Source of the DNA: Armatimonadota bacterium
GTDB lineage: Bacteria > Armatimonadota > Fimbriimonadia > Fimbriimonadales > Fimbriimonadaceae
Assembly: GCA_029781035.1 (NCBI GenBank)
Contig: JAKOXK010000030.1
Span: forward strand, 62,001 to 126,000
Direction: 5' to 3'
Length of the DNA: 64,000 nt
Part shown: positions 23,910 through 26,253 of the stretch, in pieces
Position numbering within the stretch: the first letter of the stretch is position 1
Layout: each line of letters opens with the position of its first letter
The notes under the pieces: model-generated
The model's input: only the letters and a program-made list of their open reading frames with translations
The model's database searches: none
Told to the model about the DNA's origin: nothing
Program-made: the position numbers and the translations under genes

Positions 23910-24314
23910 CTAGATTTCCGGTGTCCGACGCTTGGTCACCCGGAGTACAGGGAGCAACGGCTCGTCGGCCCGTATGGGTGTACTCGAATTCGCTAGGATC
24001 TGCTGCACTCGTCGCTCTACTTCGGCGGCGTAGTCGTGGACCTGTTGCTCGAATTCCTTGCGTTGGTCGTCGAGGTCGTCAAGGAGCCGCAAGATGATCT
24101 CAACCCCAGCCAAGTTCACGCCCATCTGTTGCGTCAGCCTTTGAATCCGCCTGACCCTGGCGATGTCCTCGTCACTGTAGAGCCGGTTCTTAGCCCCGAC
24201 CCGCGATGGCACCACAAGGCCAAGGCGCTCGTACTGTCGCAGGGTCTGTGGGTGGACGTTGCACAGTTCGGCAGCGACTCCGATCATGTAGACGGGCTGA
24301 TTGGATCTTCTCAT
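23910..24314 (-). CDS. hspR: HspR, MerR-type heat-shock repressor
   Basis: The 134-residue protein has a MerR helix-turn-helix ([30 protein letters not shown], then [18 protein letters not shown]) and a coiled dimerisation helix. It has no effector-binding domain, as in Streptomyces and Mycobacterium HspR. HspR binds HAIR elements with DnaK as co-repressor. The start overlaps the dnaJ stop by four bases, and a HAIR-like sequence sits before dnaJ, so autoregulation is likely. dnaK and grpE are not in the window. The basic tail KRRTPEI ends the protein. Confidence 0.88.
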
Positions 24315-25270
24315 TGGCCTTGCTCTGTTTCCAGGAGCTCTTCGAGGAGTTTCCTCTGACGCTCGGTCAGCTTCTTTGGAACCGTGATCTTCACTCGGGC
24401 AAGAAGGTCTCCATGGCCCCCGCCGGTCTTCGACACACCCTGTCCCTTAAGCCGGAAGACCTGCCCGGACTGTGTGCCAGGGGGGATCGACATCTTGCCG
24501 CTGGACCGGGGCGTCGGCACGGAGATCTGACCTCCGAGCGCGGCGACCGTGTAAGGGACGGGCACCTCGACTTCAGTATCTAGGCCCTTCCGCTTGAAGA
24601 CGGGGTGGGGCATGATTCGGACCGTAACGAACAAGTCGCCGCTCTTGCCACTGGAACCCTTGGCGCCCCCGCCAGGAACACGAAGTTTCTTTCCCTCCTC
24701 AAAGCCCGCTGGGATCGTGACGACGATCTTTCGCATGTTGGGCACAGTCCCTGTCCCACGGCAGTTCGGGCAAGGGCCGGGACGTCCGCCTGTCATGCGG
24801 ACCCGTCCGCTACCGGAACACGTCTGGCAGGCGTCTTCGGTCTGGAAAGTCAGAGTCCGCTTCGTGCCCGAGTCGATTTCGTCCAGGGTGACGTCGAGGA
24901 CGCGCTCGACGTCACGAGGAGGCACCTGGTGGGCACGGTTGAACGGATCGCCACCGAATCCGAAGAGATTGCCAAAAAGGCTCCCGAGGTCCACCTCGCC
25001 CTCTTGACCGAATCCGCCAAAGTCGCCTGAACCCGCGAATCCATGGGCGTTCTCCCAGTTCGATCCGAAGCGGTCGTACTGTGACCTCTTCTCGGGATCA
25101 CTGAGCACAGCGTACGCCTCGCCAACTTCTTTGAACTTCGCTTCTGCGCTCGCGTTGCCCGGATTGACGTCGGGGTGGAACTTGCGGGCCAACCGGCGAT
25201 ATGCACTCTTGATCGCCTTGTCATCGGCGTCCTTTGGAACGCCAAGAACCTCATAGTAGTCTTTCGTCAT
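24311..25270 (-). CDS. dnaJ: DnaJ/CbpA-like J-domain co-chaperone with half-size zinc region
   Basis: The protein is 319 residues. The J domain is intact with HPD ([34 protein letters not shown]). A Gly/Phe-rich linker ([25 protein letters not shown]) follows. Only two zinc motifs remain, CQTCSGSG and CPNCRGTG, instead of the four of classical DnaJ. Two beta-sandwich substrate-binding domains follow and end [21 protein letters not shown]. It stimulates DnaK ATPase and delivers clients. It forms an operon with hspR. The two-motif arrangement lies between class A and class B J-proteins. Confidence 0.9.
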
Positions 25271-25290
25271 AATGCCGTCGGGCTCAATGA

Positions 25291-25311
25291 CATGAGCGTA
25301 CCATACTCAAG
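25291..25311 (-). promoter_or_regulatory. HAIR-like HspR operator upstream of dnaJ-hspR
   Basis: On the minus strand the sequence reads CTTGAGT-N7-GCTCATG. The published HAIR consensus is CTTGAGT-N7-ACTCAAG, so the first half matches 7/7, the second 5/7, and the spacing is exact. It lies 20-41 bases before the dnaJ start codon, and the same transcript encodes HspR. Confidence 0.7.
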
Positions 25312-25347: not shown

Positions 25348-26253
25348 ATGGCCTCAATCGAACTCAAGCAACGGTCGGGAAACGCCGAGAATGCAGATGT
25401 GGATCTCGCTAGTTTGGAAATCCGGATGTCGCGGAGTGAAAACCTCCCGACGCTGCCTCAGTCAGCAAGCCGGGTTCTGCGTTTGGCCGACGATCCCGAC
25501 GTCAGCCCGCGCAAGATCGAACAGGCCATCGAACTCGATCCTGCAGTGGCCGCCAAGATCCTGCGTGTGGCCAACTCCGCCTACTACGGCACCACACAGG
25601 TTGCCACATTGGGGAGGGCGATCAGCTTTTTGGGGTTGACGACCGTGCGTTCGGTGATCATCAGCATCGCCATGCAGCAAATGGTCACCGGACGGACTCA
25701 GTGTCCGAGCTTCAACAAGGTCGACTATTGGCGGCACTCCTTGGCCGTCGGTACGATTGCCCGGATCATCGGCAAGCTTAAAGTCCCGGGCAAGGCGGAG
25801 GAACTCTACTGCGCCGGAATGCTCCACGAGATCGGACTGCTGGCCATGGACAAGTTCGTGCCTCAGGAACTGCATGTCGCCATCACACGGGCCCGCGAGA
25901 GCGGACGACCCCTGGAAGAGACCGAAACCCACGTTCTCGGCTTCAACCACAGCCAGGTCGGCGCCGTCCTCTCCCGACGCTGGGCGATGAGCCCGACCGT
26001 GACCGACGCGATCCAAAACCACGGTCATCCGACCACCGATGGAGAACATGCTCAGACGACCCTGATCGTCGCGATCTCCAATGCACTCGCCAACGCGGCT
26101 CACTTCACCCACAACAATACCAACGACCAGACCGGCGTCGATCCGGCCCTGGCTCATGCCGTCGGCCTGCCGGAAGAGCAGTTCGGCATCATTTGTGAGG
26201 TCGTTGGCCAAGAGGTCACTCGGGCTCAGGAACTTTTCCAGATCGCGGCCTGA
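25348..26253 (+). CDS. HDOD domain signalling protein
   Basis: The 301-residue protein is nearly all HDOD, an HD-related domain that usually lacks the metal-binding His-Asp set. Typical segments are NLPTLPQSASRVLRLADDPDVSPRKIEQAIELDPAVAAKILRVANSAYYG, ISFLGLTTVRSVI and YCAGMLHEIGLLAMDKFVP. HDOD proteins take part in stress, motility and cyclic-di-GMP signalling, usually as regulators without known catalysis. It diverges from dnaJ with 77 bases between, so the HAIR-like element also lies in its upstream region. Confidence 0.9.
   Translation: MASIELKQRSGNAENADVDLASLEIRMSRSENLPTLPQSASRVLRLADDPDVSPRKIEQAIELDPAVAAKILRVANSAYYGTTQVATLGRAISFLGLTTVRSVIISIAMQQMVTGRTQCPSFNKVDYWRHSLAVGTIARIIGKLKVPGKAEELYCAGMLHEIGLLAMDKFVPQELHVAITRARESGRPLEETETHVLGFNHSQVGAVLSRRWAMSPTVTDAIQNHGHPTTDGEHAQTTLIVAISNALANAAHFTHNNTNDQTGVDPALAHAVGLPEEQFGIICEVVGQEVTRAQELFQIAA

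Follow-up and report, generated by a model that had tools for sequence, protein, structure and literature searches.

A predicted HspR operator with a third half-site upstream of the dnaJ-hspR operon in Fimbriimonadaceae (Armatimonadota)

Introduction

The dnaJ gene analysed here, from a bacterium of the family Fimbriimonadaceae, is preceded by a short inverted repeat and followed by a gene for a MerR-family regulator. Is this repeat the operator through which HspR controls its own operon, or does it only resemble one? The HspR-binding element HAIR has the consensus CTTGAGT-N7-ACTCAAG (PMC7464140), and the HspR/HAIR regulon of Streptomyces coelicolor comprises the dnaK operon, clpB, and lon (PMC2687793). 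A literature search found no report on an HspR/HAIR heat-shock switch in Armatimonadota. The window, i.e., the whole 64-kb stretch of DNA that was analysed, belongs to a 3.42-Mb draft genome and lies on its contig C12 (C12:62001-126000). The comparisons described below indicate that HspR very probably uses the site as its operator for the dnaJ-hspR operon, and the HspR switch as a whole is the explanation that we hold with high confidence.

The predicted operator and its neighbouring genes

On the minus strand, positions 25311-25291 read CTTGAGTATGGTACGCTCATG. This sequence matches HAIR at 12 of 14 positions with a spacing of exactly 7 nt, and both mismatches are in the right arm. It is the sole site with two or fewer mismatches to HAIR in the window, and it is housed in the 77-bp gap between dnaJ (ATG at 25270, minus strand) and an HDOD-domain gene (ATG at 25348, plus strand). 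The features of the region are listed in Table 1.

Table 1. Predicted operator elements and genes of the dnaJ region (positions within the window)
Feature	Position	Strand	Evidence
HAIR operator (predicted), CTTGAGT-ATGGTAC-GCTCATG	25291..25311	-	20 nt between its end and the dnaJ start codon; kept in 57 distinct family promoters
Third half-site TTGAG, +24 from the HAIR 5' end	25283..25287	-	TTGAR at +24 in 46/57; extended motif single in the genome
dnaJ, 319 aa, J domain and DnaJ C-terminal domain	24311..25270	-	TIGR02349, 319.9 bits, below the cut-off of 377
hspR, 134 aa, MerR-family heat-shock repressor	23910..24314	-	NF047375, 113.6 bits, above the cut-off of 105; Pfam MerR_1
HDOD-domain gene, divergent	25348..26253	+	PF08668, 182.5 bits; ATG 36 bp from the operator

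The original prediction, which described CTTGAGT-N7-GCTCATG at this place as a HAIR-like element, was exact in its sequence, coordinates, spacing, and number of matching positions. It had also placed the element in the dnaJ promoter region, upstream of an HspR gene co-transcribed with dnaJ. The start of hspR and the stop of dnaJ share the sequence ATGA (a 4-bp overlap), so the two genes are presumably co-transcribed. According to the curated NCBIfam model, the gene beside dnaJ is a true HspR. A structure search for a solved HspR returned matches solely to other MerR-family and related proteins. Comparison of the intergenic DNA with plasmids gave no match.

Conservation in the family and the likely regulon

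In dinucleotide shuffles, 0.16 HAIR matches per 64 kb are found at two or fewer mismatches, and it follows arithmetically that about 2e-4 such matches are expected in the 77-bp gap. Across the whole genome, 18 distinct sites with two or fewer mismatches are present. There is no genome-wide excess of HAIR: at three mismatches, 155 matches were counted versus 212 for the reversed control. Since no genome-wide signal can be noted, targeted promoters and a comparison across relatives were used. Among 15 fetched HAIR loci of this genome, only the dnaJ and hsp20 sites clearly precede a heat-shock gene, and nearly all the others are inside long ORFs.

HAIR is found in 57 distinct Fimbriimonadaceae dnaJ promoters. 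Its distance to the ATG is exactly 20 nt in 34 of these promoters, and it has three or fewer mismatches in 47. Per position, the information content of these promoters is high in both HAIR arms and low in the flanks. In some family members (L022), the dnaJ HAIR is degraded.

The site with the fewest mismatches in this genome (one mismatch; C71:94922-94942, L001:1501-1521) is followed 24 nt later by the likely start codon of an hsp20 gene; owing to an upstream TTG start, the site was counted as in-ORF in one tally. Some hsp20 genes of relatives (L084, L085, L086, L087, L090, L091, and L094) also have HAIR-like sites of varied quality, and other hsp20 copies are without them. With three or fewer mismatches allowed, dnaK is preceded by a HAIR-like site in 28 of 29 relatives. 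The dnaK gene of this genome (L016, C12:3-1010) is cut by the contig start, and the assembly does not contain its promoter; in the congeners G001 and G003, HAIR stands before dnaK. For clpB, 15 of 24 relatives have HAIR upstream of the start or spanning it at three or fewer mismatches, and 21 of 24 at four or fewer, but no HAIR-like site was found at the clpB of this genome (L116, C58:78553). The clpB genes of congeners have a weak HAIR (4-5 mismatches) across the start codon, and the clpB sites of other relatives are better. HAIR-like sites before 24 lon genes are not beyond chance.

The original prediction had proposed a search before dnaK, clpB, and lon and would have been undermined by the absence of HAIR from other chaperone genes. 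The expectation was borne out for dnaK and clpB in relatives and for hsp20 in this genome, but not for its own clpB or for lon. The likely regulon comprises dnaJ-hspR, dnaK, clpB, and some hsp20 genes, and not lon.

A match of 12/14 positions is weak by itself. It is the conservation in the family that settles the question: the site is more than a chance match because HAIR is kept in 57 distinct promoters and is found at dnaK and clpB of relatives, while lon is negative. The reading of the locus as autoregulated HspR heat-shock control is thus supported by comparative evidence.

The third half-site

The conserved part of the family dnaJ promoters extends beyond HAIR. At +24 to +28, the information content is 1.1-1.9 bits, and TTGAR at +24 is approximately as frequent as in the HAIR left arm (46 and 47 promoters, respectively). 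When TTGAGYRTNNTANNCTCANGNNNTTGAG, which joins HAIR and the third half-site, was searched with three or fewer mismatches allowed, there was one match in this genome, at the dnaJ HAIR and with 0 mismatches, and 0 control matches. Of 61 genomes of the class, 31 have a single match each to a slightly looser three-half-site form, with one mismatch allowed, and its reversed control had no match in the 61 genomes. Nearly all the loci checked (29/30) are at dnaJ. The third half-site is also present at dnaK in eight of 17 family members, where its offset is +25.

Could this TTGAG be the ribosome-binding site of dnaJ rather than a repressor half-site? About 12 nt separate its end from the dnaJ ATG, and there is no other obvious Shine-Dalgarno sequence for dnaJ. 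Nevertheless, we consider such an explanation rather unlikely, because the offset to HAIR is constant while the distance from TTGAG to the ATG ranges from 3 to 15 nt, and because the element recurs at dnaK. At dnaK, the start codon is more distant from the element and is often preceded by an AGGAG-like site of its own, and the sequence TTGAG is that of a HAIR half-site, unlike the Shine-Dalgarno consensus. In this view, a second HspR unit, weaker and closer to the start codon, is probably placed on the third half-site.

The divergent HDOD gene

The divergent arrangement of dnaJ and the HDOD gene, which the original prediction had pointed out together with a possible co-control, is found in 41 of 67 related loci (the loci were not de-duplicated). 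This arrangement, as well as the short distance from HAIR to the HDOD start codon in the window, might mean that the conserved inverted repeat serves the HDOD gene as its operator or is shared by both genes. However, HAIR is located about 20 nt from dnaJ also in loci where HDOD was not detected (e.g., L155, L157, and L165). The distance from HAIR to dnaJ is constant with or without a detected HDOD gene, whereas the distance from HAIR to HDOD is variable. We regard an HDOD or shared operator as improbable: the divergent orientation stands, but the spacing of HAIR follows dnaJ. Some co-control of the HDOD gene is possible. The preferred reading is that of an HspR operator belonging to dnaJ-hspR.

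Overlap with an ECF-type promoter

In the regions upstream of dnaJ, dnaK, and clpB in the family, the motif G[AG]AAC-N17-CGT occurs 27 times at a spacing of 17 and two times or fewer at any other spacing. The shuffle means are about 0.03-0.07 promoters per set. The ECF-type motif was found in 28 of the 57 family dnaJ promoters and in most of the dnaK and clpB promoters of the family that were tested. Where relatives have the motif at dnaJ, dnaK, or clpB (L019-L131), it overlaps or precedes HAIR. In 23 dnaJ promoters, the HAIR spacer contains the [CT]GT of the ECF-like -10 element; in four, this element is 5-6 bp upstream of HAIR.

The dnaJ promoter of the window itself has no recognisable ECF -35 element, and the combination of a GGAAC-like -35 with a GTT -10 is absent from it. 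A search for a sigma-70 promoter at the HAIR site gave no match. Five ECF genes of this genome (L223-L227) were considered as a source of a particular sigma factor to which the motif could be tied, and this assignment was rejected: only L226 has the motif, 247 nt upstream. None of the five exceeds the cut-off of the SigH_actino model.

The position of the ECF-like -10 within the HAIR spacer in 23 promoters raises the question of whether the conserved block mainly reflects a constraint on the core promoter, with HspR control being secondary. This is very unlikely, given that members whose -10 element lies 5-6 bp upstream of HAIR still keep both arms and that the copy in the window keeps HAIR without an ECF -35. 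Finally, a functionless chance resemblance, although such matches are common in the genome and do not exceed the reversed pattern in number, is hardly credible for an element that is kept at a fixed position across 57 distinct promoters, amid flanks that are not conserved, and recurs at dnaK, clpB, and hsp20, with lon as a negative control.

Proposed mechanism and origin of the two operators

The mechanism of HspR, DnaK, and HAIR, including autoregulation, is established in Actinobacteria (PMC10415612; PMC2687793). The operator, the layout of the operon, its conservation, the members of the regulon, and the ECF-type motif of relatives can be read from the sequences. From the known system, we infer for Fimbriimonadaceae that HspR binds the operator, that DnaK acts as co-repressor, and that heat induces the operon; the function proposed for the third half-site and the participation of a sigma factor are also inferences. 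In an unstressed cell, an HspR dimer would sit on the inverted repeat, with DnaK as the probable co-repressor, and block transcription of dnaJ and hspR; the additional unit probably seated on the third half-site would be weaker. Heat or misfolded protein would pull DnaK off, HspR would be released, and expression would begin for dnaJ and hspR as well as for the remaining genes with HAIR, which are hsp20 in this genome and dnaK and clpB in relatives. Newly made HspR would then shut the system again. In many relatives, where the operator coincides with an ECF-type promoter or directly follows it, relief of occlusion could be combined with activation by a stress sigma factor.

A second heat-shock branch may exist in the same genome. 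Two groEL genes have CIRCE-like sites (L220, L221, and L222; C7:68534, C85:40890 and 40942) at a distance of 0.6-1.2 kb upstream, and the genome also has an hrcA gene (C86); together, they suggest that this branch is controlled by HrcA.

The gene order in related families bears on the origin of the dnaJ operator. In the families of the same order (f2-f5), dnaK-(hsp20)-dnaJ-hspR are mostly together (on different contigs in G036), and HAIR stands before dnaK. No HAIR was found before dnaJ in the five f5 loci examined. In the family of the window, dnaK is located elsewhere than dnaJ-hspR, and both units have HAIR. The simplest reading of these arrangements is that the operon was split and a second operator was gained. 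A more elaborate proposal is that the three-half-site HspR element was born at the split of dnaK-dnaJ-hspR, provides the operon of the repressor itself with tighter or graded autoregulation than at dnaK and clpB, and is in many members superimposed on a SigH-type ECF promoter, which would amount to a mycobacterial-like dual control in a distant phylum. We give this proposal an even chance of being correct.

The comparative sequence evidence argues that an HspR/HAIR switch operates in Armatimonadota. Operon splitting can also be studied in the family as a natural experiment, with an operator on each half. Testable predictions on cooperativity in HspR binding, and on dual control beyond Actinobacteria, follow from two features: the constant offset of the third half-site and the SigH-type promoter that overlaps the operator.

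Comparison with known systems

Like S. coelicolor, Fimbriimonadaceae have a MerR-family HspR, HAIR, an hspR gene inside the operon that it is predicted to control, and dnaK and clpB as putative targets. Unlike in S. coelicolor, dnaJ-hspR forms a unit apart from dnaK under a separate operator, HAIR is absent from lon, and an hsp20 gene has it. Thus, the expectation of control as in Streptomyces agrees with the HspR/HAIR sites at dnaJ-hspR, dnaK, and clpB and does not extend to lon.

SigH of Mycobacterium tuberculosis has the promoter consensus GGAAYR-N17-GTT, and at clpB of this species, the SigH promoter is overlapped by the HspR site (PMC4803200). In Corynebacterium glutamicum, SigH and HspR are within one network (PMC3489674). 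The spacing of the ECF motif in relatives is identical to that of the M. tuberculosis SigH consensus when counted from GGAAC. Unlike in the SigH/HspR systems of M. tuberculosis and C. glutamicum, the dnaJ promoter of the window lacks the -35 element, and this genome is without an ECF gene over the SigH_actino cut-off.

Campylobacter jejuni HspR binds cooperatively to a strong HAIR and flanking weaker sites, in which the left arm is kept and the right arm is degenerate (PMC7464140). The extra left-arm-type site beside HAIR in Fimbriimonadaceae is similar, which makes C. jejuni a fair precedent for a weaker second HspR unit. Unlike C. jejuni, Fimbriimonadaceae have a single half-site at one fixed offset, conserved like a HAIR arm. 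The core finding adds a further example of a known switch, and the three-half-site layout is a modest variant of it.
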